Below, piece by piece: positions 38,864 to 55,204 of a stretch of DNA of 64,000 nucleotides. The translations under genes were made by a program, and so were the position numbers. The first letter of the stretch is position 1; the number at the start of each line of letters is the position of its first letter. The notes beneath the pieces were generated by a model. It worked only from the letters and a program-made list of their open reading frames with translations. It made no database searches and was not told the DNA's origin. The stretch is from Bacteroidales bacterium (lineage in GTDB: Bacteria > Bacteroidota > Bacteroidia > Bacteroidales > UBA1402), in contig JAFUDT010000003.1 of NCBI GenBank assembly GCA_017464285.1, forward strand, positions 1 through 64,000, in the 5' to 3' direction.

Positions 38864-41788
38864 TTATTCCAAACTGATCATCAGCCGGCCCTTTTGCGGG
38901 CCATGAAGCTGACGTATCTGACCGGATGGACCGGTCATGTCGGGGGCATGCCCCTTGTTGCCGACAGCCGGGATGATGTCCAGCACGGCCAGGCCGGTGG
39001 GGGGCAGGGTGTAGATGAGGCCGTCGCGTCCGTCGCACGGCGTGTAGAGACCGAGATAGCTGCCATGGCGGCCGTTGTGCCAGACAAAACGCCCTTCGGC
39101 GGTATGGAAATCGGCCCATTGCCAGTGGCCATAGTAGCCTTTGAACTCGGGATAGTCGAAACTCTCACCGGGCACGGGGTCGTTCCAGACCTTGGCCCAG
39201 ACATCGAGGCGCGGGCCGTGGAGCCGGTTCTGCCAGACCCGGTAGGGACCTTCGGCCAGCATGCGTAGACTCTGCATCTGCCCTTCGGGATAGTCGAAGC
39301 AAATGCCGCAGAGCTCGGTGGGTTCCTCCCAGAGGTATTCGTAGTCGAGCTGGATTTCGCCCAGGCGGTTGATGTGCCATTGCATGGAGCGGAGCGGACC
39401 CTCGTAGGCGGCCTTGATGAGCAGCATGCCTTCATCGTCCTCCCAGGTGAAGGATTTGAGTTGCGAGTCGGGAGCTATGTTCTCGAAGGTGCGTTCCTTG
39501 GGCCGGTCCTGCATCCAGTTAGGGTTGCCCCGTTTTTCGGGCGTGGTGCGCTTGGCAGCAACCAGGCGAGGGCCGTTGCCAAGGGATATTCTGCCCAGAC
39601 GAAGCAGGCGGCCGGTGCGCAAGTCGAACAGCAGGTCGCTGGCGGGGTCATCCTCCTTCCAGCAGACATGTAGCGTCTGACCATCCACGCGGCAGGCCGG
39701 CGCGGCGGCCGATGGATCGGTAGGCTCGGTGATGAGCGGTTCGGGCACTTTCCAATAGTAACTCCAGGTGAAGAGACTGTCGCCACGGGGATCGAAGGCC
39801 GTCAGGTAGAGCGCGTCTGCCTGCTGCCAGAGCGGAGGCAGGTCCAGGCTTAGCTCACCGCTCTGGCGGGGCGGTATGTCAAGGCCGGCAACCTGGCCGC
39901 CGCCAAAGTGGCGATGGCCGCTCTTGTCGTCCCTGGGCAGCCGGAACTTGACCAGTTCCCAGTCGAAACGGCATTCCTTGAGATTGATGAAATCGTAGCG
40001 GTTTTCTATCAGAAAACGCCCGTTGAACACTGCCAGGTCAGCGATGAAGATGTTCTGGTCGGCCTGCAGGGCCAGTGCCTCGTCACCGGGTGCCGGGGCT
40101 CCGGCGGGCTGGACATGGACAGGGCACCAGATCTGGCGAATGGCGTCGTAACTGCCTTCCTTCTCGTGATGGGGACCGACTATGCCGTCGGGGGCATAGT
40201 TGCCCACACAGTCGATGCGGCCGCCTTCATCGGTGCGCAACACGCCTTCATCGGCCAACGACCACAAAAAGCCGCCGCCGGCACGCTCATGGCGCCGGAT
40301 CTGTTCCCAGTAGTCCCACAGGGCTGCCCCGTGACCGCCGTCGTAGAGCCCGTGCAAAAACTCGGTGGGCATATAGATACCAGGACGTGTCAGCGCCATT
40401 TTCATGCGGTCGTAGAGAGGATAGTGCTGGGTCTCGAAACCGTTGCGGTTGGACCAGGGATAGAGCACCGGACGCTGCTGGAGGTCGGCCTGTTTGAACA
40501 CCGGTTCCAGCTCATAGTTGAAGCCGCCCTCGTTGCCGTTGGACCACCATACGACCGAAGGATGGTTTTGGTCGCGGACCACCATGGCCTCGACCAGGGG
40601 CGTGCCTGCCGCCGTGCTGTAGTGGCCGTGCCAGCCGCCCAGCTCGTCCATGACGTAGAGACCCAGGCTGTCGCAGGCATCCAGGAAGTCCGGATCGGGC
40701 GGGTAGTGCGACAAGCGTACGGCATTCATGTTCATCTGTCGCATCAGCCGCACATCGTCCAAGTTGTCCTGACGACTCAGGGCCCGGCCGGTCTCGGGCC
40801 GGAAGCTGTGGCGGTTGGCGCCTTTGACCAGCACCTTGCTGCCGTTGATGTAGAGGCCGTCCTCTTCGCGCACCTCGATGGTGCGGAAGCCGATGCGCTG
40901 CGTCGTGGCATGCAGCAGCTGCCGGCCGTGATAGAGTTCCAGGCAGAGACGGTAGAGCGCAGGTGTCTCGGCCGTCCAGGGCCGGATATGGCTGAATCGG
41001 GTTTCAATCAGGGACTGGCCGGCATTGACCGTGACACTGACCGGGCGGCCGATGCGGCGGCCGTCCATGTCGCTGAGGCGGGCCACCAGGCGATAGCCTT
41101 CGTCAGAGGTGCCGACTGTCTGGATGCAGGCTTTGAGACGGCCGTCCATCTGGGCATCGACAGCCACCTGGCCGATATGCTGCTGAGGCCGGGCTGTCAG
41201 GAAAACGGGGCGGAAGATGCCGCCGAAATTCCAGAAATCAGCCCTGCGTTCGGCTGCATTGACACTGGGGTCGGCCGATTCCTTGCTTACCAGGACTTCA
41301 AGCTCGTTGTCCTGCCCGTCGTAGCGTAGCAGCCGGCTCACATCGGCCGAGAATCGGTAGAAGGCTCCCTGGTGCAGGCCGACGGCCGTCTGTCCGTTGA
41401 GCTTGACCGAGCAGTCGGTCATCACTCCCTCGAAGACCAGGTCGATGACACGGTCTTTCCAGGCATCAGGTACACGGAAACGGGTACGGTAGAGTCCCGT
41501 TTCGTCAGCGGGAGCCGGCGCATCCTGGCCGCGTAGCAACACGCCGTACTGGTAGGTGCCATAGCCTTGCAGCTCCCAACAGGAGGGCACGTCGATGTGC
41601 CCCCATTGGCCGGCCTGCTGACCGCCGCTGCACAGGAAGTCCCATTGGACCGCTGTGGCGGCATCCCGTCCCGACAGATACTGGATCTCGGTCCGGGTGT
41701 CGGGAGCCACTCCTTGCCGGCAGGCCGTAAAGGCTCCGCCGGCAAGCAGCAGCAAAGCGAGAATCAGTCCCCTTTGTTTCATCAGCAC
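38864..41788 (-). CDS. Glycoside hydrolase family 2 lipoprotein
   Basis: A 974-aa protein with a signal peptide and lipobox FTAC near residue 22, so exported and lipidated. The layout is that of GH2: N-terminal sugar-binding beta-sandwich (WGHIDVPSCWELQGYGTYQYG-type region), Ig-like domain, TIM barrel, then a long C-terminal beta-sandwich part. The barrel shows the acid/base glutamate in WSNGNEGG (about residue 418) and a likely nucleophile glutamate in PTEFLHG (about 475). GH2 includes beta-galactosidases, beta-glucuronidases, beta-mannosidases and enzymes for pectin side chains; I cannot choose among them. It lies 13 bp after the 908-aa lipoprotein gene. Confidence 0.85.
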   Translation of the reverse strand: MLMKQRGLILALLLLAGGAFTACRQGVAPDTRTEIQYLSGRDAATAVQWDFLCSGGQQAGQWGHIDVPSCWELQGYGTYQYGVLLRGQDAPAPADETGLYRTRFRVPDAWKDRVIDLVFEGVMTDCSVKLNGQTAVGLHQGAFYRFSADVSRLLRYDGQDNELEVLVSKESADPSVNAAERRADFWNFGGIFRPVFLTARPQQHIGQVAVDAQMDGRLKACIQTVGTSDEGYRLVARLSDMDGRRIGRPVSVTVNAGQSLIETRFSHIRPWTAETPALYRLCLELYHGRQLLHATTQRIGFRTIEVREEDGLYINGSKVLVKGANRHSFRPETGRALSRQDNLDDVRLMRQMNMNAVRLSHYPPDPDFLDACDSLGLYVMDELGGWHGHYSTAAGTPLVEAMVVRDQNHPSVVWWSNGNEGGFNYELEPVFKQADLQQRPVLYPWSNRNGFETQHYPLYDRMKMALTRPGIYMPTEFLHGLYDGGHGAALWDYWEQIRRHERAGGGFLWSLADEGVLRTDEGGRIDCVGNYAPDGIVGPHHEKEGSYDAIRQIWCPVHVQPAGAPAPGDEALALQADQNIFIADLAVFNGRFLIENRYDFINLKECRFDWELVKFRLPRDDKSGHRHFGGGQVAGLDIPPRQSGELSLDLPPLWQQADALYLTAFDPRGDSLFTWSYYWKVPEPLITEPTDPSAAAPACRVDGQTLHVCWKEDDPASDLLFDLRTGRLLRLGRISLGNGPRLVAAKRTTPEKRGNPNWMQDRPKERTFENIAPDSQLKSFTWEDDEGMLLIKAAYEGPLRSMQWHINRLGEIQLDYEYLWEEPTELCGICFDYPEGQMQSLRMLAEGPYRVWQNRLHGPRLDVWAKVWNDPVPGESFDYPEFKGYYGHWQWADFHTAEGRFVWHNGRHGSYLGLYTPCDGRDGLIYTLPPTGLAVLDIIPAVGNKGHAPDMTGPSGQIRQLHGPQKGRLMISLE

Positions 41789-41801: not shown

Positions 41802-44528
41802 TTAATAGAACAGCCAGTCAATGGAAGAAGATTCCTTCAGGCCGGCATCGCGGGTCTTGAAGTCGTTCACTTGCCTGGAGAAGCCAAGTATCAGACACAT
41901 GCCGCGCCCCAAGGTAATATTGTGCTGTCCTGGATCAAACTGGTAGCTGTGGACATTGACTGCCGGCATGCGGGCAATTTCCAGTGCATTGGCAATCTTG
42001 ATGTCTGCCTGCCCGTAGTCGTTGGCCGTGGCATCGGTTTCCAGACGCGGGGCCTGCATATAGCGGCTGCTCGGGCTGATGGACCGATAGTAGCCGACCC
42101 ACAGGGTGACGGGCTCCTGGCAGGAAAATTCAAGGGAGGTGACCCCGTCGCGCTGCTGCATGGTGTTCACGCGCAAAGCCTTCAGACCTTTCAGCTCCGG
42201 AGCGATCTGCAGGATGGTCTCAGGACGGTCGTAGAAGAGGGACGCCCCTTCGCTGAGCCCGACCCATTCCCCCTGGGGTGCCTGAATCTTGACATCGGCT
42301 GCCTGAAAAGGCGCGATGTCGGTCGAGGCAGACTCCTTATCCCGGAGTTTCTGTATATTGGCGGCGAAATTGGCCAATTCCTGTTCGAACTGCGGCAGCA
42401 GCTCCCACCATTCCTTGTTGCGTCCGTTGGCTCCGCTGGCCGGAATGCGGCGCTGGGAAGTCTGCATGCTGTTGGCGTAGAGATAACTGTCCTTGGTCAG
42501 CTCGACCAGCCGGCGGTAGGATGCCAGGCTTTTCTCCATCCAGGAATAGGCTATATCCAGGTCGGTCAGGTCGTTGCTGTATTTGTAGCGCAGCACCGAC
42601 ATGGCAGCTTCGAGCTTGTCGTCGAAACTGGTCGTGAAGGCTTCATAGCAGTGCATGTCGTTTTTCAGGCGGGCAAATTCATCGGCATTGCGACTGACGC
42701 TTCTGACCTTGTCGATGGCTTGTACGGCCAGCCGGGCATGCTGGCGGGTCTGGGCTATCAGGGCCGGCGGCAGGTCGGTGCCTTCATGAGGCTCGCCGTT
42801 CCATTCTCTTTCGGCCCAGACCTCGAGTTTCTCACCCAGCGGGCCGCAGGAATTGGCGAAATCCGGATAGACGGTCCAGCGGTTGGGATTGACCAGCTGG
42901 CTCATGAACATGCCCAACAGGAAACACTGGCGGTTGCCTTCGGTGATGCCGAACTTGCGCAGCAGTTTGGGCGAAATCTCGCCGGCCTGTTCGTAGGCTT
43001 CCAGGATGCGCGCGGCATCACTCTTGGAACAGCCGTAATAGTCGGCCAGGCGGTAGCGCCAGTAGTCGATTTCTTCCTGACGGTCGCGACCGGCTTTCCA
43101 GGCGTAGCGCCCCCAGGTGCCGTACCAGATCCAGTCGCGCTCCATCTCCTTGAGACGGGAGCCGTCGGAGAGTTTGTCGGCCGTGTAGGGCCAGTCCCAG
43201 TAGGAAGCCTGGGGATAGAGATGCAGTCCGTTGCCGCCGTGTATCTCGTGCATAGCTTTGACGCTCTTCTGTACAAAATCGGGCGAACCGTAGCGGAAGG
43301 GCTCCAGATTGGCCAGAATGTGTACGTTCTCGATGTGGACGGATCCCAGCGCGCTGAGTGAGCGGTGAGTCTCGGTCCAGGGGCCTCTGGGCTCGTAGGT
43401 GCAGAGCGACTCGCCGTTGTACTTGTTCATGGTGTAGAGATTCTTGTAGATGGGCAGGGCAGCGTCCATCACCATCTTGCAGTTGGTGTCGTGGGCACGC
43501 AGTACGATAGGAGGCTCCTGTTCGATCCCCAGGGCTTTGAGTCCGTCCTGCACTCCGGGAATGATGGTCTTGGTAAACCAGTTCACATCGTCGTCCCAGG
43601 TGTTCATGGCCTCACCCAGGCAGACCAGCAGGCCAACGTTGGGATATTTTTCGATGAAGGCGGCCACCGATTTGCGGGTATAGTCCGACAGCAGGGGCGT
43701 AATCTCCACATTGCGGTTCTGGGTGGGAATGCCGTGGTGTTCGGCAAAGGGTTTGGACACGATGATGTTGTAGAACATCTGGATGACCCAGATACCGCGT
43801 TTGTTGGCCTCGGTGGTAAGAAAACTGAATATTTCCTCGTTCTTCTGGAAGTCTTCCTCGCTCACTTCCAGGGCATAGGGGTAGTCGGGCAACTTGACCA
43901 GAGAGGCAAAGGGATGCCCGTTCCACAGATAGAGCGAGTTCATGCGGTTTTCGACCAGCATGTCGAGATATTCAATCCACAGTTCTTTGTCGTAGAACCA
44001 TGGGAAGAGTTCTTCGGTGTAGGGGTATTCATAGACCCTGCGGCCGGGCAGCCAGTAGGTCTTCTGCACGCCGATGCAAGTGCCGCGCAGCACCATTTCG
44101 GGCTGGTCGGAAAAGTCGATCCGGGCAGGCAGGCGCTTATCGCGGGCCAGCCGGTCGCAAAGTTCCATACAGCCGTACAGCGCGCCGCTGGCATCATAGC
44201 CGGCCACATAGAGTCGGTTGTCATGCCGGTACAGGCGAAAGGCTTCCTTGGCCTGGGGAATCTCCAGACCGGCCTCTTGCATGAGGGTGTCGTCGCCGGT
44301 GCCTATGACAATTTCCAGCACCTTGCCCTCCTGGGCCGGTGTCTCGGAACTGACGAGTGTATAACCACAGTCGTTCAGGGCCGCCGAGAGTTTTTCGGCA
44401 GCAAATTCAATACGGGGATTGTCCTGGTCCGCCAGGAGGATGGTCACCTGTTCTTGGTTGGCTGCAGTCCGGCAGGCGGACAGCAGGAGGGCGCAGGCAA
44501 GCCCGGTCAGTAATACTCTAAGTTTCAT
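41802..44528 (-). CDS. Large lipoprotein with GH67N/GH20b-like N-terminus, putative glycoside hydrolase
   Basis: A 908-aa protein with a signal peptide and lipobox LSAC (Cys19). Residues about 25-140 look like the zincin-like N-terminal domain shared by GH20, GH67 and GH84 (ILLADQDNPRIEFAAEKLSAAL, VIGTGDD, YDASGALYGCMELCDRL). A TIM-barrel-like middle follows with VLRGTCIGVQKTYW and NRMNSLYLWNGHPF, then a helical part and a C-terminal beta-sandwich. By analogy it may act on a uronic acid or hexosamine linkage, but no characterised family could be named. It is 6 bp after the PTS gene and 13 bp before the GH2 gene. Confidence 0.6.
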   Translation of the reverse strand: MKLRVLLTGLACALLLSACRTAANQEQVTILLADQDNPRIEFAAEKLSAALNDCGYTLVSSETPAQEGKVLEIVIGTGDDTLMQEAGLEIPQAKEAFRLYRHDNRLYVAGYDASGALYGCMELCDRLARDKRLPARIDFSDQPEMVLRGTCIGVQKTYWLPGRRVYEYPYTEELFPWFYDKELWIEYLDMLVENRMNSLYLWNGHPFASLVKLPDYPYALEVSEEDFQKNEEIFSFLTTEANKRGIWVIQMFYNIIVSKPFAEHHGIPTQNRNVEITPLLSDYTRKSVAAFIEKYPNVGLLVCLGEAMNTWDDDVNWFTKTIIPGVQDGLKALGIEQEPPIVLRAHDTNCKMVMDAALPIYKNLYTMNKYNGESLCTYEPRGPWTETHRSLSALGSVHIENVHILANLEPFRYGSPDFVQKSVKAMHEIHGGNGLHLYPQASYWDWPYTADKLSDGSRLKEMERDWIWYGTWGRYAWKAGRDRQEEIDYWRYRLADYYGCSKSDAARILEAYEQAGEISPKLLRKFGITEGNRQCFLLGMFMSQLVNPNRWTVYPDFANSCGPLGEKLEVWAEREWNGEPHEGTDLPPALIAQTRQHARLAVQAIDKVRSVSRNADEFARLKNDMHCYEAFTTSFDDKLEAAMSVLRYKYSNDLTDLDIAYSWMEKSLASYRRLVELTKDSYLYANSMQTSQRRIPASGANGRNKEWWELLPQFEQELANFAANIQKLRDKESASTDIAPFQAADVKIQAPQGEWVGLSEGASLFYDRPETILQIAPELKGLKALRVNTMQQRDGVTSLEFSCQEPVTLWVGYYRSISPSSRYMQAPRLETDATANDYGQADIKIANALEIARMPAVNVHSYQFDPGQHNITLGRGMCLILGFSRQVNDFKTRDAGLKESSSIDWLFY

Positions 44529-44534
44529 CGTGAT

Positions 44535-46019
44535 TTATTTTTCAGTGATTAATTCTCTCATTTCATCGGCCACAAACTGGACGCGTGTACCGATGACAAT
44601 TTGTATGCTTCCCTTGCCGGGACGGATCAGACCGCTCACGCCGCCGGCTTTGACAGCGGCGTCATCGACCAGGCTGTCATCGGCCAGCTCAATGCGCAGG
44701 CGGGAGATGCAATTGTCCAGCCGGCGGATGTTATCCTTGCCACCCAGAGCATCGACCAGGCGGCGTGCCAGTTCCCGCTGCGGCATGTCGGGAGGCGTCG
44801 CCGTTTCGGGCAAGGATCCCGGTCTGCGGAACAGATGACGCGCAGACGCGGACGTCCTATCCCCGGACCGGCCAGGTCCTTTCTCCCTGCCCGGAGTGGG
44901 CAGGTCAAACCAGACGATCATCAGGCGGAAGACCAGATAATAGACAGCTGCCACTACCAGTCCGATGAGGAGCAGCCAGTGCGGATTGAGTGCCATGGGC
45001 GCTTTCAGGCAGAGCAGATAGTCGACCAGCCCGGCACTGAAGTTGAATCCGGCCCGGACGGGCAGCAGTGCTGTCACATAGGCTGTCAGACCGCTGAGCA
45101 GGGCATGGGCCAGGTAAAGCCCCGGAGCCAGGAACATGAAAGAGAACTCCAGCGGTTCGGTCACTCCGGTCAGGAAACTGCTGAGAGCCGCGGCCAGCAG
45201 CAGTCCGCCGACGGTCTTGCGCCTTCCGGGGCGGGCCGTACGATACATGGCCAGCGCAGCGGCGGGAAGTCCGAACATCATGATGGGGAAGAAGCCCGTC
45301 ATGTACTGGCCGGTCTCTCCCAGTATGCCTTGCCCGCTCCAGAAACTGCCCAGATCGTTGATCCCGGCCACGTCAAACCAGAACACCTGATTCAGGGCAT
45401 GATGCAGCCCCAGGGGAATGAGCAGCCGGTTCAGGAAGACATAGATGCCGGCGCCGGCAGCCCCGAAGTGCATGATCCAGCTGCCGAAATCTATCAGTGC
45501 GTTGTACAGCCAGGGCCAGATGAAAAGCAGTGGCAGGCTGACCAGGCAGCTCAGGGCGGCAGCCATGATGGCCACCGAACGCTTGCCGCTGAAGAAAGCC
45601 AGTGCCTCGGGCAGGTGGGTGTCTTTGAACCGGTTGTACGACCAGGCACCGATCAGGCCGGCGATGATGGCCATGAATACATTCTCGGTTTTGGCAAAAG
45701 CCGGGTCGGCCTCTCTGCCGGTCAGCAGTGTGACGCTTTGCGTCGAGAGCAGGCTGGCAAGTACTATCCAGCTCACCAGGCCGGCCAGGGCCGAAACGCC
45801 GCCTCGGTCTTCGGACATGCCGACGGCTATTCCGACGGCAAACAGGATGGGAATGTTTTCTATGACGGCTCCTCCCGCCCTCTGCAGGAATGTGGCCGCC
45901 ACATTGACTCCCAGTGCCGACTCTATCCAGTAGCCGATGCCGATAAGAATGCCGGCCACGGGCAGACAAGCCACCGGCAGCATCAGCGATTTCCCCAGTC
46001 TCTGTAAATATATCATCAT
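44535..46019 (-). CDS. PTS sugar transporter, EIIC-EIIB (glucose/N-acetylglucosamine family)
   Basis: A 494-aa protein. Residues 1-365 are the EIIC membrane domain with about ten helices, MMFGLPAAALAMYRTA and the substrate-site motif TGVTEPLEF; these look closer to the GlcNAc (NagE) branch than to PtsG, from memory. A Gly/Arg/Ser-rich linker (about 370-415) joins it to an EIIB domain with the phospho-acceptor Cys437 in DNCISRLRIEL. It should bring in a sugar and phosphorylate it in the same step. It is the last PTS gene in the operon, 35 bp after HPr. Which sugar it carries cannot be read. Confidence 0.9.
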   Translation of the reverse strand: MMIYLQRLGKSLMLPVACLPVAGILIGIGYWIESALGVNVAATFLQRAGGAVIENIPILFAVGIAVGMSEDRGGVSALAGLVSWIVLASLLSTQSVTLLTGREADPAFAKTENVFMAIIAGLIGAWSYNRFKDTHLPEALAFFSGKRSVAIMAAALSCLVSLPLLFIWPWLYNALIDFGSWIMHFGAAGAGIYVFLNRLLIPLGLHHALNQVFWFDVAGINDLGSFWSGQGILGETGQYMTGFFPIMMFGLPAAALAMYRTARPGRRKTVGGLLLAAALSSFLTGVTEPLEFSFMFLAPGLYLAHALLSGLTAYVTALLPVRAGFNFSAGLVDYLLCLKAPMALNPHWLLLIGLVVAAVYYLVFRLMIVWFDLPTPGREKGPGRSGDRTSASARHLFRRPGSLPETATPPDMPQRELARRLVDALGGKDNIRRLDNCISRLRIELADDSLVDDAAVKAGGVSGLIRPGKGSIQIVIGTRVQFVADEMRELITEK

Positions 46020-46054
46020 CTTCTCAGTCTCTCAATGGAAAAACGGCTGTCTCT

Positions 46055-46303
46055 CTAGGGAAGAACGGCCGTCAGGGCTTGAGCTGCCTCTGCTTCGTCG
46101 GGGCCGTCCAGAGTAATGTCCATCCGGTCTCCCTGTTTCAGCCCCAGTGTCATAAGCCCCAGAATGCTTTTCAGGCTGACGGTCTTACCCTTGGCCGTGA
46201 GCCGGATGTCCGAGGCGAAGCCGGCTGCCGTCTTGACCAGCAGGCCGGCGGGGCGGGCGTGGATGCCCAGCGAATCTTGTATGACGTGTGTTATGGTTTG
46301 CAT
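46055..46303 (-). CDS. ptsH: Phosphocarrier protein HPr
   Basis: An 82-aa protein of the normal HPr length, with the phospho-acceptor His15 in LGIHARPAG and the regulatory-type Ser46 in SLKSILGLMTLG. It carries phosphate from EI to EIIA. In Firmicutes, Ser46 is phosphorylated by HPr kinase as a carbon-catabolite signal; no HPr kinase gene is in the window, so that use is open. Its start overlaps the end of the EI gene by 13 bp, indicating coupled translation. Confidence 0.93.
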   Translation of the reverse strand: MQTITHVIQDSLGIHARPAGLLVKTAAGFASDIRLTAKGKTVSLKSILGLMTLGLKQGDRMDITLDGPDEAEAAQALTAVLP

Positions 46304-47910
46304 ATCTGACGGATTTTGGCTTTGACGGCCGGCAGATGGGCCGGGCTTACCGAAAAGCGTGTCAGCCCCAGCTGCAGGAGTTCGGGCAGTGCCTCCAGGT
46401 CGTGTCCCAGCTCGCCGCAGAGGCTCAGACCGACACCCTGTCGGCGGGCGGCCTCGACAGTCAGGCCAATCATTTTCATCACGGCCGGATGCCGGTTGCC
46501 GAATTCGGCAGCCAGTGCCTCGTTTTCGCGGTCGGCGGCCAGTGTGTATTGCGCCAGGTCGTTGCTGCCGATGCTCATGAAGTTTACTTCCCGGGCCAGC
46601 TCGTCGGCCAGCATGACGGCGGCCGGCGTTTCAATCATCACTCCCAGAGGCAGGTCGTCGCGATAGGGGAGTCCGGCTTCCTTGAGCTCCGCGGCGGCCT
46701 TCTGCAGCAGTGCCTTGGCACGTATCACCTCACTGAGGGAAGTGATCATCGGAAACATCAGGGCTGCCCGTCCTTTGACGGCGGCCCGCAGCAAGGCCCG
46801 TAACTGCATTTTGAACAGCTCGGGATGGCTGAGGCAGAAGCGGATGCCCCGGCAGCCCAGGGCCGGATTGCTTTCCTTTTCGGTGGAAAGACCCGGAATC
46901 TGTTTGTCGCTGCCGATGTCCAATGTGCGGAACACCAGCTGACGGTCGGGCATCAGGTCCAGACATTGTCTGTAGTATTCGGTCAGTTCTTCTTCCCGGG
47001 GTAGCCGGCGACAACCAAGGAACGAGAGTTCGGTACGGAACAGGCCGATACCGTCGCAGCCGTTGGCGACGGCCTTGCGCAGGTCCTCGATACTGCCGAT
47101 GTTGGCCAGCAGCTCGATGCGGTGACTCTGATAGCTGAGTACTTCGCCTGTGGAGGCAAGAACCTGCCGTCGGTAGATCAGTTCCTGGTTCTTTTCTTTG
47201 AGCAGGGTAATGGTCGAACTGTCGGGATCGATGAAAATAAGCCCTTCGCCACCGTCCATGGCCAGTGACCGGCTTTCTAGATCCGGATTGAGTTCCAGCT
47301 GCGGACAGACAATCATGGGCAGATTCATCTCGGTCGCCAGGATGGCCAGATGTGAGGAGGCTGAGCCATGGCGGACAATGATACCCAGCAAATTCTCCTG
47401 TCCCATCTCCATCAGGTCGCCCGGCAGCAGGTAGTCGGCCACGACTATGCCTGGAGTCTCGGTTCTTCGCTCGTTCTCCCCCTGACACAGACACCGTACC
47501 AGCATCGAGGATACATCGCGGATATCGGCCGATTTGCTGCGCATGAGCTCGTCCTCCATGCCCAGAAAAACGTCGGCATAGAATTCACTGGTCTGCAAGA
47601 CCGCATAGACGGCCGTGCGCTTGTCGTGCAGGATGCTTTCTTCGACCCGGCCGATGAACTCCTGGTCTTCAAGCATCAGCTTCTGGGCTGCAAAAATGTC
47701 GGCCCGGTCTTTCTGGAATAGCGCCTGGGCCTTCTCATAGCGAAGTGCCATCTCGTTGTCGGCCTGTTGCCATGCCTGGCGGAAGCGGGCCAGCTCGGCA
47801 GCCGTGTCCTGGACCGGCTGCTCAAACTCTCCCAGTGCGGGCCTTCGGTAGAGAACAATATGGCCGATGGCTATGCCATCGACAATGCCTTCTCCTTTGT
47901 AGTCTTTCAT
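46291..47910 (-). CDS. ptsI: PTS enzyme I (phosphoenolpyruvate-protein phosphotransferase)
   Basis: A 539-aa protein, somewhat shorter than the usual 570-575. The phosphohistidine region reads RHGSASSHLAILATEM, where the catalytic histidine is expected after the S-S pair. The PEP-binding barrel shows FRTLDIGSDKQIP, NPALGCRGIRF, MIETPAAVMLADELA, SIGSNDLAQYTLAADREN and the active-site cysteine in SLCGELGHD. EI takes phosphate from phosphoenolpyruvate and passes it to HPr. It overlaps EIIA by 4 bp and HPr by 13 bp. All key residues appear intact, so the system looks functional. Confidence 0.93.
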   Translation of the reverse strand: MKDYKGEGIVDGIAIGHIVLYRRPALGEFEQPVQDTAAELARFRQAWQQADNEMALRYEKAQALFQKDRADIFAAQKLMLEDQEFIGRVEESILHDKRTAVYAVLQTSEFYADVFLGMEDELMRSKSADIRDVSSMLVRCLCQGENERRTETPGIVVADYLLPGDLMEMGQENLLGIIVRHGSASSHLAILATEMNLPMIVCPQLELNPDLESRSLAMDGGEGLIFIDPDSSTITLLKEKNQELIYRRQVLASTGEVLSYQSHRIELLANIGSIEDLRKAVANGCDGIGLFRTELSFLGCRRLPREEELTEYYRQCLDLMPDRQLVFRTLDIGSDKQIPGLSTEKESNPALGCRGIRFCLSHPELFKMQLRALLRAAVKGRAALMFPMITSLSEVIRAKALLQKAAAELKEAGLPYRDDLPLGVMIETPAAVMLADELAREVNFMSIGSNDLAQYTLAADRENEALAAEFGNRHPAVMKMIGLTVEAARRQGVGLSLCGELGHDLEALPELLQLGLTRFSVSPAHLPAVKAKIRQICKP

Positions 47911-48407
47911 TGTCTGATACGTATGATTTGGTCGGAATGGTTCAGACGATCATGTGGAATAATATCCAGCGTCCCGATGCTGTCGGCATTGCAGACAACC
48001 ACGGGAGTGGTGGTGTCGTAGCCGGCGGCCTGCAGGGCGGTCAGATCGAAACGCAGGAGCACCTGCCCCGTCTCGACTATGTCGCCCGGCCGGACCTGAG
48101 GCTCAAAACCTTGTCCGGCCAGCTTGACCGTATCAAGGCCTACATGAATCAATATCTCCGCACCCGAGGGATGCTGCAGTCCGACGGCATGTCCCGTTTC
48201 GGGAAGGACGGTGACAAGCCCCTGACAGGGAGCCACGACCACTCCTTGACTGGGAACGATGGCTATGCCCTTGCCCAGCATGCCTTGGCTGAATGCAGCG
48301 TCCTTCACCTTTTCGAGCGCCAGCCAGCGACCTTGCAGGGGCGCGTACAGTATGATACTTCCCTTTTTCTTCAGCAAATTTCCCAGCAGCATGTCAGATA
48401 GCTTCAT
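47907..48407 (-). CDS. PTS EIIA, glucose family (Crr-like)
   Basis: A 166-aa stand-alone EIIA domain. It has both active-site histidines: one in ETGHAVGLQHPSG and the phosphorylated one in EILIHVGLDTVKLAGQGF, plus the earlier APLQGRW start strand. It takes phosphate from HPr and passes it to the EIIB domain. In enteric bacteria this protein also controls adenylate cyclase and inducer uptake; nothing here shows that. It overlaps the GH78 gene by 14 bp upstream and the EI gene by 4 bp downstream. Confidence 0.93.
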   Translation of the reverse strand: MKLSDMLLGNLLKKKGSIILYAPLQGRWLALEKVKDAAFSQGMLGKGIAIVPSQGVVVAPCQGLVTVLPETGHAVGLQHPSGAEILIHVGLDTVKLAGQGFEPQVRPGDIVETGQVLLRFDLTALQAAGYDTTTPVVVCNADSIGTLDIIPHDRLNHSDQIIRIRQ

Positions 48408-50625
48408 AGTGAACGTGGTACTTCTTGTAGGGCTCCGTGAGCTTCAGACGATAGCATTTACGGTCGATCAGATCCCGTCTGACCGGGTCTGTCTCACATA
48501 CAGGCTGACAGTTGCTGTAGAACACCAGTTCGCCCTTCCCCTCGGGAATTGTCACATAGATGTCCGTGCTATAGACAGCCACTTCAATGATGCCATGGGG
48601 TGTCGGTACCCGGCCGTTCATCGACCGCTGGCCTGCCAGACAGGGCTTTATCTCGAAAGTGGCGTAACCCGGAGAGGTGGGGCGTACCCCCAGAAAATAC
48701 TTGCCCAGCAGATAGATCGGACTGGCTCCCCAGGCATGGCACAGGCTTTTGCCGTAGGGCCGGCCGTACATGGCCAGGTGCTGGAGCCCTTTCTCCTGAG
48801 GATTGTATTTTTCCCAGAAGGAGGTGGCCCCCTCTCGTATCATTCCCCCCCAGTAGGCCTTGATCTCCTTGAGTACCGACTCCTGCTGTCCCATTTCGCA
48901 GAGGGCTTCCAACTCGTAAAAACGCATATACGGAGTGGTGATCTTCTCTATCTTGTCGTTGAGCAGGACCTGTCTGAGAATCTCTTTCTTTTCCTGGGGA
49001 CTCACATAGTCGTAGAGGATGGCAAACATGTTGGGAAACTTGGTAATCATGGGATTGACCTTGCCCTGGTCCATGTTGTGCATGAAAGCATTGAGCTTTT
49101 TGCTCCAGAAGAGCTTCTTCGTCTTTTTGAGCAGACTGTTGAACAGCGCATCGTATTTTTTGATATCGGCTTCGTAGTCTTTTCTGCTCAGACTGCCCTG
49201 AGGCGGATCGCTCAGGGGATGGCGGCACAAGAGCTCGGCACATAGTTTCATGGTTTCCAGAGCCTTGCAGAACAAAATCTGCTCAAAGCACATCACCCCC
49301 CGTTTGGGCATGGGAAAATCTGTCCAGTCCACGAAAATCCAGTCATCGGGCTGTCCTGCGGCCATACCGTCCTGATCGAGACGCTCCAGACAGTAGTCCA
49401 TCAGGCTGCGCATCCGGGGATAGATTTCCCGTACAAAACCGACATCGCCAGTGTGGAAATAGTAGTCATAGACCGACTTGAACCAGTAGAAGCTATAGTC
49501 CATGATGGTGTTCACATGGGCTGTGACAGGATCCTTGCCCCTGAGCTGCCGGATCGTGCGGCGTACCAGCCGGCTGTTGAATCGCAGGTAGTAGTTCATC
49601 AGGTACGACTGTATGGCATCGCCCGACCAGGTCCAGCGGTCGCGCTTGATGCCGTCCAGGAAGAACTCCCGGGTGGTGAGATCCATGGTGTGGGCACTCA
49701 CCCGCCAGATCTTGCTCAGCTCGTTGTCGTAGCTGTGGAAAAAGCCGCTTTCAGCGGTATTGAAGGTATTGTACTCATAGTCGGCCGACACTTCGAACAG
49801 CAAGGTTTTCGGGGCGACGACATAGATATAGCGGAAAGCCTTGCTCGAGGGCAGGGTATAGCTGTCGGAGTAGGGGCAGACCGTTCCGGTAGCCAGGTCG
49901 GTGATGCTCTCCTGGGTGATTTCCACACGGTCCAGCGTCTCGCAGTAATCAGTGTCGAGTGCCTCTTCACGGCTCTCTCCGTAATAGATCCCGACAGTCC
50001 CCTGACCGTCGATGGTTGCCAGACGGACATAGCCGAAAGTCTCCTTCCCGAAATCATAGAGCATTCCTTTTTTCACTGGCTCCATCGAAACCGCAGCCAC
50101 GGTCTTCCGACGCAGACGATACTGGGATGGCAGCTGCCCGGCACTGTCGAAATTCTCGAATCCCGGGTGGACATAGATGCCCGATCCGTGGGCCACGCCG
50201 TTTTCATCGATCCAGATCTTGTCCTCGTAGGTCACCAGCCAGCTGGCATCGGTATGGACTGTCGTACCCTTGATGAACAGAGCCGGCGGCGAGGCAAGGT
50301 TGTGCACCTTGATGTTGAGCTTGTGTTCTCCTGCCGGCAGTATCAGGTCCTTGGGCTGACCGAACTGCAGTTTGCCGTCGAGCATCAGGTTGTAGCTGCC
50401 CTCGGCCGTGATGTGGAGGGTTTCGTCCTTTTCCAGCGTGAAGGATTTGGAGAACTCCACAGTGGCCCAGTGGCTGTCCTGTTTCCAGAAGGGCGGGAAC
50501 ATACCGCCTCTTTCGGTGCGACGGTTGTTGAAACGGTTGCCCAGCCAGATCTCGAAGTCACCCGGATACCAGATCCAGGTGGCTTTCGAGGTCTGAACCG
50601 AACTGTTGTCAGATATTGTCGCCAT
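48394..50625 (-). CDS. Alpha-L-rhamnosidase-like enzyme, GH78, cytoplasmic
   Basis: A 743-aa protein with an N-terminal beta-sandwich and an (alpha/alpha)6 barrel that contains FFLDGIKRDRWTWSGDAIQSY, the GH78 acid-region signature, followed by a C-terminal beta-sandwich. No signal peptide is seen, so it should work inside the cell on imported rhamnosides. It overlaps the MFS transporter gene by 17 bp and the EIIA gene by 14 bp, tying it closely to uptake. Freed L-rhamnose could enter the RhaA/RhaB route encoded at 6.4-9.1 kb. Substrate linkage is unknown. Confidence 0.85.
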   Translation of the reverse strand: MATISDNSSVQTSKATWIWYPGDFEIWLGNRFNNRRTERGGMFPPFWKQDSHWATVEFSKSFTLEKDETLHITAEGSYNLMLDGKLQFGQPKDLILPAGEHKLNIKVHNLASPPALFIKGTTVHTDASWLVTYEDKIWIDENGVAHGSGIYVHPGFENFDSAGQLPSQYRLRRKTVAAVSMEPVKKGMLYDFGKETFGYVRLATIDGQGTVGIYYGESREEALDTDYCETLDRVEITQESITDLATGTVCPYSDSYTLPSSKAFRYIYVVAPKTLLFEVSADYEYNTFNTAESGFFHSYDNELSKIWRVSAHTMDLTTREFFLDGIKRDRWTWSGDAIQSYLMNYYLRFNSRLVRRTIRQLRGKDPVTAHVNTIMDYSFYWFKSVYDYYFHTGDVGFVREIYPRMRSLMDYCLERLDQDGMAAGQPDDWIFVDWTDFPMPKRGVMCFEQILFCKALETMKLCAELLCRHPLSDPPQGSLSRKDYEADIKKYDALFNSLLKKTKKLFWSKKLNAFMHNMDQGKVNPMITKFPNMFAILYDYVSPQEKKEILRQVLLNDKIEKITTPYMRFYELEALCEMGQQESVLKEIKAYWGGMIREGATSFWEKYNPQEKGLQHLAMYGRPYGKSLCHAWGASPIYLLGKYFLGVRPTSPGYATFEIKPCLAGQRSMNGRVPTPHGIIEVAVYSTDIYVTIPEGKGELVFYSNCQPVCETDPVRRDLIDRKCYRLKLTEPYKKYHVHYEAI

Positions 50626-51973
50626 ATCTCTCTCTGGTTATCTGGTCGAGTGTCTTGCCGCGGGTTTCGGGAGCGCAGAACACACCGATGAGCAGCGAGA
50701 CGATCAGCAGGCCGGTCATGATGGCGGCAGCCAGACCGAAGCCTTGTCCGTTGGCCCCGTAGATGTAGGCGAAGACCACCCCCCAGACAGCCGACAGGCC
50801 GCGTACGAAGAAGAACATGACACCCTGGGCGGCTGCACGGTATTTGGCCGGGAACAGCTCGGTGGCCCAGAGAGCATAGAAGGTCTGTACGCCCAGACCG
50901 GAGTGGAGGCCCCAGAGGACGGTGAACAATACCAGGTATTTCATATCGGTGATACCGATAAAATCAATGATGAACCAGGCGCAGATGCCGATGACGACAC
51001 CCAGGGCAAATACCCAGCGCTGGTTGACCTTGTCAATGATAAAGGACAGCAGGAAGGTGAAGGCAATGATGATGAGCCACTGCCCGGAGGCCAGCATATT
51101 GGCCTGGCTGTTGGACAGCCCACCGGCCGTCTCGTAGATATGAGGCTGGAAGAAACCCATCACAGAGGCCACCAGATTCCATGTCAGGTACATGCAGGCC
51201 AGGAAGGCCAGCGTCTTGACCACCTTCTTGTTGGAGAACAGCGTGCCGAACGAGGAGAATACACCGGCCGTTTTCTCGGCCTTCTCTTCGGCTTTCATGG
51301 CTGTCCATTCGGCCGATTCGTCCAGGCGGCGCTGCAGCAGCCAGGCAACGAGTGCCACGATAAAGAGCGAGCCGAAGACCACGCGGCTGCTGAACACGTT
51401 CAGGGCAGCCCCGGTAATAGATCCGCCCGAGAGGGCATTGACACAGCTTTCAATGACACCGAACAGGACACCGCTCTCCTTGCCGGCCGTGGCAGGGGCG
51501 AAGAGCATACCCAGGAACAGGATGATGGTCGGGCCGATGCCCCAGGCCATCTGGGAGATACAGATGTTGCGTCCGCGCTTTCCCACCTCGGAGCTCTCCG
51601 AGATATAAGTCCAGGAGGCGGGCACCCCTACGCCCACGGAAATACCCGTGACGAGGAACCCGGCCAGCAGCATCGGGAAATTGACGGCAAAAATGACGAT
51701 GGCGACGCCCAGCATGTAGAGGAGCATGTTGTAGGTATAGATGAACTTACGGCCGTATTTGTCGGCCAGAAAGCCGCCGATGATGGCTCCGATGGCCGCC
51801 CCCAGACAGTTGGCGCTGACAAAGTTCAACCAGCCCAGATGTCCTTCGGACAGACCCAGGTATTCCTGCCACAGCGTCAAGCCGCTGGCACCGGCCACGA
51901 TGGCGCCGGCATCAAGATAATTGGTCAGAGACACGGTAATCGTACTCTTCAAGCTTCCTTTTTTCTTTTCCAT
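50609..51973 (-). CDS. MFS transporter, sugar porter family
   Basis: A 454-aa membrane protein with about 12 helices. Sugar porter signatures are visible: FLADKYGRKFIY between helices 2 and 3, SGISVGVGVP-type sequence (here TGISVGVGVPASWTYISE) near helix 4, and APETRGKTLDQI at the C-terminal end. It probably imports a mono- or small oligosaccharide with protons. It lies between the GH141-like gene (42 bp) and the GH78 gene (17-bp overlap), so the imported compound is probably the GH78 substrate. The operon thus encodes two unrelated inner-membrane sugar importers, this and the PTS. Confidence 0.88.
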   Translation of the reverse strand: MEKKKGSLKSTITVSLTNYLDAGAIVAGASGLTLWQEYLGLSEGHLGWLNFVSANCLGAAIGAIIGGFLADKYGRKFIYTYNMLLYMLGVAIVIFAVNFPMLLAGFLVTGISVGVGVPASWTYISESSEVGKRGRNICISQMAWGIGPTIILFLGMLFAPATAGKESGVLFGVIESCVNALSGGSITGAALNVFSSRVVFGSLFIVALVAWLLQRRLDESAEWTAMKAEEKAEKTAGVFSSFGTLFSNKKVVKTLAFLACMYLTWNLVASVMGFFQPHIYETAGGLSNSQANMLASGQWLIIIAFTFLLSFIIDKVNQRWVFALGVVIGICAWFIIDFIGITDMKYLVLFTVLWGLHSGLGVQTFYALWATELFPAKYRAAAQGVMFFFVRGLSAVWGVVFAYIYGANGQGFGLAAAIMTGLLIVSLLIGVFCAPETRGKTLDQITRERYGDNI

Positions 51974-52015: not shown

Positions 52016-53926
52016 TTATTTCTTTCCGCCTGTCGTGCGGCCGGCCTTAGTCCTGATCCAGTCGCCGGCCTGCGGACCGTTGTTCTCCCAGTAGTTGAGC
52101 CCCGGCTGGTTCTGCCCGAACTTGGCCTCGGTGCACCAGTTGTCGCGGATGGTCATCCACGAGGAGGCCTCGTCGAGGTAGATGTAGTGGCCCTGAGTCG
52201 TGTCGTGGACATAGTCGGGGTGATAGATGTCGTGGATATAGTTCTCGGCAATGACCGTGCCCGTCTGGGCCGAGAGTGTGTAGATGCCGCCGCAGCTGTA
52301 GTTGTGCCGGCCGAAATGATGCACATCGTTGGCCAGGATGCGGTTGTCTCTCATCACGTTGGCAGTCCGTATCCAGCCCCAGCCCACACTGATGCCGCTG
52401 TAGGGCAGTTCAAAGACTTCATTGTGCTCGATGAGGAAATCACGCACGTAGCCGGCAATGATGCCCACACAGCCCCAGTATTCGCTGGCGCAGTCGAAGA
52501 CTTCGTTTTCGGTGATGTGCAGGTTGCTGCATACCTCCCGAAGATCCTGCGGCTGATAGGGCAGATGGGTCTCGACGCCTGGATCGGAGAATTTGCCGGC
52601 CACCAGCCCGCTGCCGGCAATGTGGCTGAACTTGCAGGCATACACGCGGCTGTCGCTGCATCCTTCCACATAGTCCAGGCCCGAGGCTCCCAGCAGGCTG
52701 AAACGGCAGTCGGTAAAGCTGACGTTCCTGGCCCCCCGCAGACTCACGGCGGCAGGCTGCCGGCCTATCCATGCCTGGTTCTCCAGATTCTCCTTGAGCG
52801 GAGTGCCGGGCTCCTGCAGCTTGTAGGCATCCAGCAGATACATGCCCGCCTGCAGGGGAACATAGCCCTGCAACGAAGGCCTGAGCCAGGTGCTGTGCCT
52901 GAAATTGAGATCTTCGAAGACGATGTTCTCCACAGGCGCATCCAGGCTGCCTTCGACCCGGATCAGGTTCTCCAGTACCGGCACGACACATTCGGCCATG
53001 TTCATGTCCTGGCCTGCGGAGGCATAGTAGTAGAGGCGGCCCGAGTGCTCGTCGTAGTACCATTCGCCCGGCTGGTCGAGCAGCTCGATGGCTCCGCTCA
53101 GACGGAAGGGCGAGTTGCCGCTTTCGGCGATGACGGCCGGCGGCCAGGGATGCTCGAACTCCAGCCGGCTTTCGGGCTGGTGGAACGACAGCACGGCTTG
53201 CGTACCCTTGATCTCTATCGCTTTGATGCGCAAGATGGCCACCTCCCACATCTGGTGGATAAAGAATTCCATGCCGTCCACCTTGGTGAACGACCTGACT
53301 TTAGGCGCCGGAATGGTGATGGTCTGCCGCTCTTTATCGACGGCCAATATCTTGTTGAGCCGGTCTGGATCTTCTATGTCGCAGGCTTTCAGTGCCTTTT
53401 TTCCATTCACGTAGAACTGGCGGAAGTGCAGCTGCTGTCCGCCGGTCCTGGGAACATCCGTGTACCAGATGTCGGCCGCAGGCACACGCAGGCCCTTGGG
53501 CGCTTTGCTTAGTCTTTTCCAGTTTTTCAGGGGCATGCCGCCGCTTATCGTCACTTGTACACCCTCCATGTCGTCGCTCTGTCGGGGCAGCTGGCTGTAC
53601 CTCGTGCCGTGGATATAGGTCGGGCAGTCTTTCGTGCCGGAATCTTCCGGCCGTATCAGTATCGGCTCGTCCAGATAGTAGGTGCCGGGTATGTGCCATA
53701 TATGGATGGCGTCGCCCAGTTCGCGGCCCAGGCGGCGCATTTCGCGGGCTTCCCGCAGAGCTCCCCGCAAGGTGGCTTTGGGCGCCTCAAAGCTGCCGCT
53801 GTTGCTGTCATTTCCCTTGGGGCTGACCCAGAGGTCGGCAGCCTGCATGCCCGGCAGGCTGGCTGCGAGCAGCAGCAGGGCGGTCATCCGGCCGGGAAGT
53901 TTGCTATGGCTGTGGTTCTTCTTCAT
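52016..53926 (-). CDS. Secreted right-handed beta-helix protein, GH141-like
   Basis: A 636-aa protein with a signal peptide (LLLLAASLPGMQA) and then the opening ADLWVSPKGNDSNSGSFEAP found in GH141 and related beta-helix enzymes. Repeated turns of the type NVSFTDCRFSLLG, NLHITENEVFDCASE and NVMRDNRILANDVHHFG follow to the C-terminus. Known GH141 members include a fucosidase that acts on rhamnogalacturonan II and a xylanase. The start ATG 53926 lies inside the end of vanZ (23-bp overlap), and a start further upstream is less likely because the signal peptide would be buried. Exact activity is unknown. Confidence 0.72.
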   Translation of the reverse strand: MKKNHSHSKLPGRMTALLLLAASLPGMQAADLWVSPKGNDSNSGSFEAPKATLRGALREAREMRRLGRELGDAIHIWHIPGTYYLDEPILIRPEDSGTKDCPTYIHGTRYSQLPRQSDDMEGVQVTISGGMPLKNWKRLSKAPKGLRVPAADIWYTDVPRTGGQQLHFRQFYVNGKKALKACDIEDPDRLNKILAVDKERQTITIPAPKVRSFTKVDGMEFFIHQMWEVAILRIKAIEIKGTQAVLSFHQPESRLEFEHPWPPAVIAESGNSPFRLSGAIELLDQPGEWYYDEHSGRLYYYASAGQDMNMAECVVPVLENLIRVEGSLDAPVENIVFEDLNFRHSTWLRPSLQGYVPLQAGMYLLDAYKLQEPGTPLKENLENQAWIGRQPAAVSLRGARNVSFTDCRFSLLGASGLDYVEGCSDSRVYACKFSHIAGSGLVAGKFSDPGVETHLPYQPQDLREVCSNLHITENEVFDCASEYWGCVGIIAGYVRDFLIEHNEVFELPYSGISVGWGWIRTANVMRDNRILANDVHHFGRHNYSCGGIYTLSAQTGTVIAENYIHDIYHPDYVHDTTQGHYIYLDEASSWMTIRDNWCTEAKFGQNQPGLNYWENNGPQAGDWIRTKAGRTTGGKK

Positions 53927-54347
53927 GAGGTTTGTTTTTACGATAGAGTGCGACAATGTAATAGAACAGGAAGGCGAACAAAGCTCCGGCCAGGTCGGCC
54001 GTCAGGTCCGTCTGTTCGGCTCCCCGGTAGGAAGTAAGGCTCTGCAGGTATTCGATTCCTCCGCCCAGGATGGCCGTCAGCAGCAGGGTCAGGGTGAAGA
54101 GCCTGAGTTCCCGGCCGTCGGATCTGAACAGGTTCCGGCGGTGATGATATTCCCAGATGAAAACCAGTGAGAGGACAAAATAGAACAGAAAATGAACCAC
54201 CTTGTCCATGCCTTCGAAAGTCGGCACCTCATCGGGTATGTCCGAGAGATTGATCAGACAGGCCACTACGATGACAATCGTCCACAAGACGGTCAGCGTG
54301 AATCTCGGCAGTTTTCCCGACAATGTCTTCAGTTGGTTCTTATCCAT
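53904..54347 (-). CDS. VanZ-like membrane protein
   Basis: A 147-aa protein with four hydrophobic helices and the VanZ family features: SDIPDEVPTFEGMDKVVHFLFYF near the first helices and SLTSYRGAEQTDLTADLAG near the third. The family is widespread with no general function known; it should not be read as a vancomycin resistance gene. Its first codons (MDKN) and leader lie in one copy of the 44-bp direct repeat. Its last 23 bp overlap the GH141-like gene. The placement as the original first gene of the operon, before the toxin cassette entered, is inferred from the repeat. Confidence 0.78.
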   Translation of the reverse strand: MDKNQLKTLSGKLPRFTLTVLWTIVIVVACLINLSDIPDEVPTFEGMDKVVHFLFYFVLSLVFIWEYHHRRNLFRSDGRELRLFTLTLLLTAILGGGIEYLQSLTSYRGAEQTDLTADLAGALFAFLFYYIVALYRKNKPHEEEPQP

Positions 54348-54383: not shown

Positions 54384-54581
54384 CTAACACTGCTGTTCAT
54401 CAGCTCCTTCAGATGTTTCCTCGATAATCTGTCGGGCGGGTATGCGCTGAAAAGTTTCACCATCAGGAGAAACAATGATGTCTTCATCATGCAAGGCCTT
54501 TTCTTCCAGCATATTCCTTTCAGCTATTTCCAGACCTTGCCTCAGCATGTTGGAAAACTCATGGACTTCCTTATTTGACAT
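54384..54581 (-). CDS. Small acidic protein, putative antitoxin of the zeta-like toxin
   Basis: A 65-aa protein starting MSNKEVHEFSNMLRQGLEIA, rich in Glu and Asp, with no membrane helix. Its ATG overlaps the end of the toxin gene by 11 bp, which points to coupled translation. Small acidic partners directly next to zeta-type toxins are usual for antitoxins, though many lie upstream and not downstream. I chose ATG 54581; longer in-frame forms lie wholly within the toxin gene. Role inferred from position and composition only. Confidence 0.55.
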   Translation of the reverse strand: MSNKEVHEFSNMLRQGLEIAERNMLEEKALHDEDIIVSPDGETFQRIPARQIIEETSEGADEQQC

Positions 54582-55146: not shown

Positions 55147-55177
55147 ACTCGTACCTGAGTCTGCATTAGCTTTCAAA
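55134..55177 (-). repeat. 44-bp direct repeat, copy 1 (toxin leader and start)
   Basis: Identical over 44 bp to 54335-54378. It begins at the last four bases (TTTG) of the promoter -7 box, and covers the leader, ATG and first four codons of the toxin gene. Confidence 0.95.
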
Positions 55178-55204
55178 GATACGGCAAGACTGTCGAAAAA
55201 CAAA
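55174..55204 (-). promoter_or_regulatory. Promoter of the 17-kb toxin/glycan/PTS operon
   Basis: On the minus strand TTTG (55204-55201), 19 bp, then TATCTTTG (55181-55174): a perfect Bacteroidota promoter. The start point should lie about 20 nt before the toxin ATG. No other good promoter was found before the last gene of the run at 37778. Confidence 0.8.

Follow-up and report, generated by a model that had tools for sequence, protein, structure and literature searches.

The window, a 64,000-nt stretch of Bacteroidales DNA, encodes a complete sugar PTS (EIIA, EI, HPr and EIICB; positions 44535–48407, minus strand) that keeps every phosphorelay residue and is interlocked with pectin-type glycosidases resembling rhamnogalacturonan-II (RG-II) enzymes. 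From what was observed directly, namely the gene content, the conserved catalytic residues, the scarcity of such systems in the order, the gene trees and a conserved neighbourhood, we consider it likely that this is a working, GlcNAc-leaning PTS that came from a gut Clostridia/Butyrivibrio-like bacterium or a gut spirochaete and has been inherited vertically since.

A self-contained PTS in one operon

The four PTS genes lie as follows.

47907–48407, minus strand: EIIA, 166 aa, glucose/beta-glucoside type (Pfam PTS_EIIA_1, 159.9 bits)
46291–47910, minus strand: EI, 539 aa, with a short C-terminus (Pfam PEP-utilizers_C, 327.7 bits; PEP-utilisers_N, 85 bits)
46055–46303, minus strand: HPr, 82 aa (Pfam PTS-HPr, 95.2 bits)
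44535–46019, minus strand: EIICB of NagE type, 494 aa (Pfam PTS_EIIC, 230.8 bits; PTS_EIIB, 49.9 bits)

All four proteins score far over the Pfam cut-offs, and these matches together with the coordinates bear out the gene positions given in an earlier, sequence-only reading of this DNA. The coordinates likewise confirm the coupled overlaps that it described on the EIIA side, of 14 nt between the GH78-like gene and EIIA and of 4 nt between EIIA and EI, and add a 13-nt overlap of EI with HPr that was absent from it. HPr and EIICB are separated by 35 nt, and EIICB lies 6 nt from the downstream glycosidase gene. The host, a rumen-type Bacteroidales genome (2.37 Mb, 83.5% complete), has a single detected EI and a single detected EIIC, and the PTS contig (410 kb) also carries rpoB/rpoC. 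GC and GC3 of the PTS block are similar to those of neighbouring genes. No long direct or inverted repeats were found at its flanks, and the four tRNAs located in a search for signs of mobile elements lie far away, at 15.8–17.6 kb. Promoter and terminator scans gave results at chance level.

Phosphorelay residues and the proposed mechanism

EI (432.8 bits against TIGR01417; cut-off 341.7) carries His187 within GSASSHLAIL and Cys498 within CGEL, both invariant among six aligned EIs, as are R292, R328, E427, N450, D451 and R461, which we take to be the PEP-binding set. HPr has His15 and Arg17, EIIA has TGHAVGL and the phosphohistidine motif EILIHVG, and EIIB Cys437 aligns with E. coli PtsG Cys421. 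The active residues of EI, HPr, EIIA and EIIB that had been picked out by eye are therefore all present on alignment, with none of the losses that the sequence-only reading had named as counter-evidence. By sequence criteria the set is a PTS, having EI, HPr, EIIA, EIIB and EIIC with their phosphorylation residues, and a dedicated PEP-driven sugar PTS most likely functions here. In the proposed mechanism, whose activity, sugar, direction of transfer between lineages and use of the sugar phosphate we infer, phosphate would pass from PEP through EI His187, HPr His15 and the soluble EIIA to EIIB Cys437, while EIIC would move a glucosamine-type hexose, most likely GlcNAc, across the inner membrane during its phosphorylation.

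HPr Ser46, present in the window, is Lys or Arg in two relatives (G006 and G002), and HPr kinase/phosphorylase (PF07475) had no matches across the PTS-bearing genomes; the combination of that kinase with HPr Ser46 that marks a Firmicutes-type regulatory PTS was thus not found. Of the further ptsHI or HPr kinase genes that it had seemed worth looking for, neither a second EI in the genome nor an HPr kinase in the PTS-bearing genomes was detected, and the description of a complete, self-contained PTS in a Bacteroidales glycan operon is supported. The EIs share a short length (531–547 aa versus 559–617) and a histidine motif starting with GS rather than GG, which also occurs in Lachnospira, Ezakiella, Leptolinea and Paenibacillus and speaks for the proposed origin. 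Divergence within the family is strong, the EIs of the window and its congener G002 matching at 41%, and the EI frame of one congener contains an in-frame TAG; together these suggest that constraint may be loose in places.

The EIICB pocket is of NagE type

Using published pocket residues (PMC11393339), we located N197, R198, H206, H207, N210, M247, T287, E288, F327 and S328 in EIICB. N197 and M247 align with N181 and M237 of E. coli NagE and with E202 and K257 of PtsG, and a pocket of NagE rather than glucose type is found in all members. Against the NagE equivalog model TIGR01998 (cut-off 553.2 bits), the window EIICB scores 559.4 bits and its relatives 560.6 (G003), 563.8 (G006) and 549.3 (G002, slightly under), while scores against the glucose model TIGR02002 reach 389–412 bits versus a cut-off of 591.8. 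The substrate is probably a glucosamine-type sugar. A search for closer EIICB relatives on plasmids gave a best match of 51%.

Fate of the imported sugar

Profile searches of these incomplete genomes detected NagA (TIGR00221) in none of the seven that carry the PTS, two weak matches resembling dihydroorotases once the whole sequences were inspected, and NagB (TIGR00502) in none of the six that represent the window's genus; NagB is present in the sister genus. These absences weigh against the favoured GlcNAc reading. The two enzymes belong to the pathway and do not define the NagE-type protein family. As a rough product of the listed completeness values, with independence assumed, the odds that the genes exist everywhere and were missed through incompleteness are ~5e-8 for NagA over seven genomes and ~2e-5 for NagB over six. 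On a less probable reading, a captured GlcNAc-type PTS would be used in a non-standard way, its product entering a route free of NagA and NagB or its transporter being re-aimed at a pectin-derived sugar. The first variant would have GlcNAc-6-P or another C2-substituted hexose phosphate as product; in the second, the sugar would be released by the adjoining GH141 protein with its changed nucleophile.

The same absences could be read in favour of a glucose PTS, in which the NagE-type EIICB shifted to D-glucose, or always carried it as well, and delivered glucose-6-phosphate straight to glycolysis in place of glucokinase. Consistent with this, glucokinase-like ROK proteins (~200 bits) occur in four of the six family genomes without a detected PTS versus none of the seven with one, although the contrast rests on 13 phylogenetically non-independent genomes. 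Nearly all family genomes nevertheless have a divergent ROK protein that bears a kinase motif, which weakens the idea that the PTS replaced all sugar kinases, and the low TIGR02002 scores and the N and M in place of the glucose-OH-2 binders of PtsG, as in E. coli NagE, also argue against glucose, leaving this explanation rather unlikely.

Pectin-type neighbours

The PTS is flanked by the following genes.

52016–53956, minus strand: exported GH141-family beta-helix protein, a BT_1002 relative in which Ser replaces the proposed nucleophile
50609–51973, minus strand: MFS sugar porter, weakly GlcP-like, overlapping the GH78-like gene by 17 nt
48394–50625, minus strand: GH78-like alpha-rhamnosidase, lacking an evident signal peptide and akin to the solved structure 3cih
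41802–44528, minus strand: lipoprotein alpha-D-galacturonidase of BT0997/BPa0997 type (GH138), 6 nt past EIICB
38864–41788, minus strand: lipoprotein GH2 beta-galactosidase-like enzyme
37778–38839, minus strand: URO-D-like protein, which co-travels with the galacturonidase and GH2 genes

The tie to one glycan product suggested by the sequence-only reading is tentative: the PTS always adjoins pectin-type genes, but its EIIC pocket is of GlcNAc type, and RG-II is not known to contain GlcNAc. Most RG-II monosaccharides have no C6-OH. In G002, as in the sister genus, GH141 lies directly upstream of the PTS. In BT1002 the catalytic residues are Asp523 and Asp564 (PMC10154630); all seven PTS-linked GH141 copies have Ser for Asp523 and keep Asp564, so that the BT1002-type pair is incomplete, while GH141 paralogues keep Asp523.

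An RG-II-dedicated PTS, its EIICB taking up a hexose that the adjacent enzymes cut from pectin side chains, would account for the position of the PTS beside GH141 in the two genera, joined in the window by relatives of the pectin enzymes of families GH78, GH138 and GH2. We hold it to be improbable, given the NagE-type pocket in all members, the missing BT1002 nucleophile in the PTS-linked GH141, the scarcity of C6-OH among RG-II sugars and the operon's MFS porter, which could itself import pectin sugars.

Distribution in the order and the phylum

Earlier work describes Bacteroidetes as having no PTS (PMC2405797) and Bacteroides as having no PTS phosphoryl transfer proteins (PMC6281302). Among 393 sampled Bacteroidales genomes, five have an EI over the cut-off, three of them from the window's family; within that family, EI occurs in seven of 13 genomes and two of three genera, and the order EIIA-EI-HPr-EIICB is common to both PTS-bearing genera. 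In the third genus the site could be read on two short contigs (L040 and L041), from genomes without EI; there the GH78-like gene comes after GH141, and the PTS is missing from the space between the two. The two EI-bearing Bacteroidales outside the family represent unrelated settings, one (G224) having another EII on a contig without a NagE-type EIICB and the other (G337) an isolated EI among other genes; kinship with either was rejected, the block being absent from both, although the EI of G337 falls near the same clostridial group and a grouping with G224 is not rejected. The wide presence of the same PTS that the sequence-only reading had named as counter-evidence is not seen outside the family. 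In a draw of the phylum, PF05524 matched 274 of 392 genomes, and among the matches listed all but the window's own lie outside the class. The earlier statement that the PTS is uncommon in Bacteroidota thus holds for the class Bacteroidia and fails for the phylum, in which EI is common in other classes.

Gene trees and origin

The EIICB and EI trees each recover the family as a single supported clade, within which the branching matches the genera. In the EIICB tree the family (100/99) is sister, at 99/92, to Spirochaetaceae plus Butyrivibrio, here a termite-gut spirochaete and a rumen Butyrivibrio. In the EI tree the family (100/99) groups, with 99/99 support, with Lachnospira, Ezakiella and the lone Bacteroidales EI of G337, and the sampled EIs of other Bacteroidota fall into a clade of their own (100/100). 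The AU test rejects uniting the family EI with these other Bacteroidota EIs (p-AU 0.0011). A clade restricted to the family, Lachnospira and Ezakiella was also rejected (p 0.013), because the G337 EI sits in the same group; grouping with G224 was not (p 0.086). Donor sampling was limited, with 80 loci for EIICB and a small number of clostridial EIs.

A single family clade, genus-like order and outside kin in both trees point to an ancient acquisition followed by vertical descent. Since the gene order is found in two genera, the PTS probably arrived as a whole or was put together very early; a recent transfer is rejected because the block is common to two genera and has a neighbour-like composition. 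The acquirer would have been the common ancestor of two genera in one ruminant-gut Bacteroidales family, and the genes would have entered a region for pectin degradation, next to GH141. Of the two origins that the sequence-only reading had offered, acquisition from outside agrees with the placement of EIICB and EI among Clostridia and gut-spirochaete sequences apart from other Bacteroidota, and with an order at large devoid of EI, while an ancient local invention is not supported. The vertical descent named as a counter-argument is seen inside the family, and the PTS is absent elsewhere.

An ancestral Bacteroidota PTS lost from nearly all Bacteroidia would fit the frequency of PF05524 outside the class, but the rejected EI grouping, the affinity of EIICB with Bacillota and one spirochaete, and the description of the Chlorobia EI as regulatory, with no PTS transporters (Comas et al., PMC2405797), make it highly improbable. 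Contaminating DNA in the bin or a decayed, non-functional remnant, to which the TAG in one congener's EI and the fast evolution of EI might point, is scarcely credible, since rpoB/rpoC on the PTS contig and recurrence with conserved neighbours in seven assemblies reject contamination, and the catalytic residues are all kept in a block of neighbour-like GC.

Significance and comparison with known systems

An old, vertically kept PTS in Bacteroidales would indicate that group translocation can establish itself where other sugar uptake rules. With no HPr kinase detected, the PTS-bearing genomes offer a clean case for a minimal one-sugar PTS minus the usual regulatory network; with NagA and NagB missing, what becomes of the imported sugar is a question open to direct test, and the GH141 subfamily with an altered nucleophile offers enzyme discovery another lead.

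This is a known kind of system in an unexpected lineage. With NagE/NagP (TIGR01998) it shares the IIC-IIB domain order, the N/R/H/N/M/T/E/F/S pocket and a score over the model cut-off, members from Butyrivibrio and a spirochaete being 54–56% identical to the window EIICB; it differs in that a separate EIIA is followed, in one operon without nagA/nagB, by a dedicated EI and HPr, and in its Bacteroidales host. The E. coli PtsG-Crr glucose PTS belongs to the same superfamily, likewise pairs EIICB with a separate soluble EIIA, and has His211, His212, Asn215, Thr297 and Glu298, whose equivalents are kept here, whereas its OH-2-contacting E202 and K257 are replaced and identity is 39%. The Lachnospira eligens megaplasmid fructose PTS (EIIC-HPr-EI) also has a short EI (541 aa) with a GS-type histidine motif and, as in some family relatives, an HPr without Ser46, but its EII is for fructose and HPr precedes EI. 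The RG-II system of B. thetaiotaomicron (enzyme roles in PMC7939467 and PMC10154630) includes BT1002, BT1001 and BT0997, to which the GH141, GH78 (this relation being inferred) and GH138 genes of the operon are related in sequence, yet it has no PTS, and the PTS-linked GH141 carries Ser at the proposed nucleophile. Self-contained clusters in other PTS-poor lineages (Haloarcula plasmid pNG700 and Deinococcus; PMC2405797) similarly keep general and specific proteins together, but with other neighbours, whereas the Bacteroidales PTS lies in the chromosome, is old and has been passed down in two genera.

A complete PTS in a close-packed gene set

The sequence-only reading had claimed a complete four-gene sugar PTS within a glycan operon, and the PTS is borne out by unambiguous Pfam and NCBIfam assignments for the four genes located here:

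47907-48407, minus strand, EIIA
46291-47910, minus strand, EI
46055-46303, minus strand, HPr
44535-46019, minus strand, EIICB

EI could be aligned over nearly its full length with solved EIs of the staphylococcal type (top score 364 bits), as could EIICB with E. coli IICB-Glc, at 304 bits; the full set of phosphorelay residues is present, and those of EI and EIICB are invariant across the relatives aligned. By coordinates, EIIA shares 14 nt with the upstream GH78-like gene and 4 nt with EI, and EI shares a further 13 nt with HPr; 35 nt separate HPr from EIICB, and 6 nt separate EIICB from the next glycosidase. The arrangement reads as one transcription unit, although a promoter scan returned matches at chance level and established no promoter. 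The PTS itself is an ordinary machine; its location in Bacteroidales is unusual.

Distribution of EI

The window lies within a 410-kb contig of a 2.37-Mb genome (20 contigs, 83.5% complete), in which no second EI or second EIIC of these families was found. EI occurs in 7 of the 13 genomes of the window's family: four of six in the window's genus (two congeners, both "Bacteroidales bacterium", come from goat reticulum and yak rumen), all three in the sister genus and none of four in the third genus. In an evenly drawn sample of 393 Bacteroidales genomes, five had EI above cut-off, three of them from this family; of the remaining two, one has HPr and EI clustered next to an EIIC of another kind, and the second has an EI on its own. 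Among the EI matches listed for a phylum draw of 392 genomes, all fell outside the class save the window's own. These distributions agree with reports that the PTS is absent from Bacteroidetes (PMC2405797) and that its phosphoryl transfer proteins are missing in seven Bacteroides species (PMC6281302); the PTS of Chlorobia is reported to be regulatory, without transporters (PMC2405797).

Outside the family, locus L029 (G224:C132, 90-3517; 39% GC) carries EIIC, an EIIB-like gene, HPr and EI on a Bacteroidales contig, apparently of fructose/mannitol type. Locus L030 (G337:C42, 1342-2985) holds a lone Bacteroidales EI that has no EII genes nearby and groups with clostridial EIs, an independent-looking second acquisition within the order.

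Origin and divergence

In trees of EIICB (54 rows, with sampling confined to the best 80 loci) and EI (37 rows, few of them clostridial), the family formed a single clade (100/99 in each). The order inside the EIICB clade matches the genera, and its sister group (99/92) is one spirochaete plus two Butyrivibrio, presumably from termite gut and rumen, respectively, judging by isolate names. The EI clade joined Lachnospira, Ezakiella and the lone G337 EI at 99/99, a clostridial grouping consistent with its short length and GS-type histidine motif. The remaining sampled Bacteroidota EIs formed their own 100/100 clade, and constraining the family EI to group with them was rejected (p-AU 0.0011). 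GC and GC3 of the PTS block are similar to those of its neighbours, as expected if the acquisition is old and ameliorated. The transfer first proposed from sequence is supported, but as an older acquisition that has since been vertically maintained. As EIIA also immediately precedes EIICB in the Butyrivibrio loci, EI-HPr could, speculatively, have been inserted between the members of such a pair.

Between the window and its congener G002, EI has diverged far more (41% identity) than HPr (53%), EIICB (63-64%) or GH141 (67%), which suggests relaxed or rapid evolution of the general PTS protein when it serves one transporter. In the yak rumen congener G005, an in-frame TAG lies within the first ~53 codons of the EI frame (L021, G005:C32, ~2501-2660) and may reflect early decay, sequencing error or a different start.

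Sugar specificity and regulation

EIICB scores 559.4 on the GlcNAc-specific model, above its cut-off of 553.2, but only 389.5 on the glucose model, whose cut-off is 591.8. Residues that hold glucose OH-2 in E. coli IICB-Glc include E202 and K257 (PMC11393339); these positions are Asn and Met in both the window EIICB and E. coli NagE, with the remaining pocket residues retained, a pattern that favours a C2-substituted hexose. The ordinary GlcNAc pathway is nevertheless disfavoured, since NagA (TIGR00221) was found in none of the seven PTS-bearing genomes and NagB (TIGR00502) in none of six genomes of the window's genus; NagB is present in the sister genus. A glucokinase-like ROK protein occurs in four of six family genomes without a detected PTS (G001:C69, G010:C9, G011:C26 and G012:C611) versus none of seven with one, but nearly all family genomes carry a divergent ROK protein that has a kinase motif. 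The likely substrate is therefore a glucosamine-type sugar. Glucose, the main rival, would accommodate the missing NagA and NagB, but sits poorly with the failed glucose model and the NagE-like replacement of the OH-2 contacts.

HPr kinase was found in none of the PTS-bearing genomes, and conservation of HPr Ser46 is lacking: the window and its closest relatives have Ser, whereas other members have Lys or Arg. Firmicutes-type carbon-control signalling is therefore unlikely in these genomes.

Neighbourhood and glycosidases

The EIIA-EI-HPr-EIICB block occupies the same chromosomal neighbourhood in both PTS genera, with VanZ, HHH, Mur-ligase and GH141 genes (the first three labelled in relatives by visible N-terminal similarity to window genes). 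GH141 lies directly upstream of EIIA in G002 and the sister genus; an MFS porter and the GH78-like gene intervene in the window's lineage, and in two third-genus genomes without EI the GH78-like gene follows GH141 directly. A trio of galacturonidase, GH2 and URO-D genes comes after the PTS in the window; in the sister genus it is ~20 kb away. Adjoining VanZ, upstream of the glycan operon, a zeta-toxin-like kinase gene overlaps a small ORF (54384-55203), a possible toxin-antitoxin pair. Elsewhere in the window, a predicted 852-aa protein without a Pfam match (28809-31367) lies between rpoC and a histidine kinase.

The neighbouring glycosidases resemble known enzymes: GH141 (52016-53956) matches BT_1002 at 601 bits, the GH78-like protein 3cih at 889 bits and the galacturonidase BPa0997 at 1108 bits. 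Rhamnogalacturonan-II is the substrate of B. thetaiotaomicron BT1002, BT1001 and BT0997 (PMC7939467, PMC10154630). With BT1002 numbering mapped via the PDB chain (offset 5, which fits both catalytic aspartates), all PTS-linked GH141 copies carry Ser at the position of the proposed nucleophile Asp523, whereas paralogues in the family keep Asp; across the window gene and loci L034-L041, the PTS-linked copies have the motif NYSCGG in place of MYDVAG. In the PTS-less third genus, one copy also has Ser there and another His. The PTS-linked GH141 is a sequence relative of BT1002 whose activity should not be assumed, given the replaced nucleophile, and such proteins may form a separate GH141 subfamily that acts differently.
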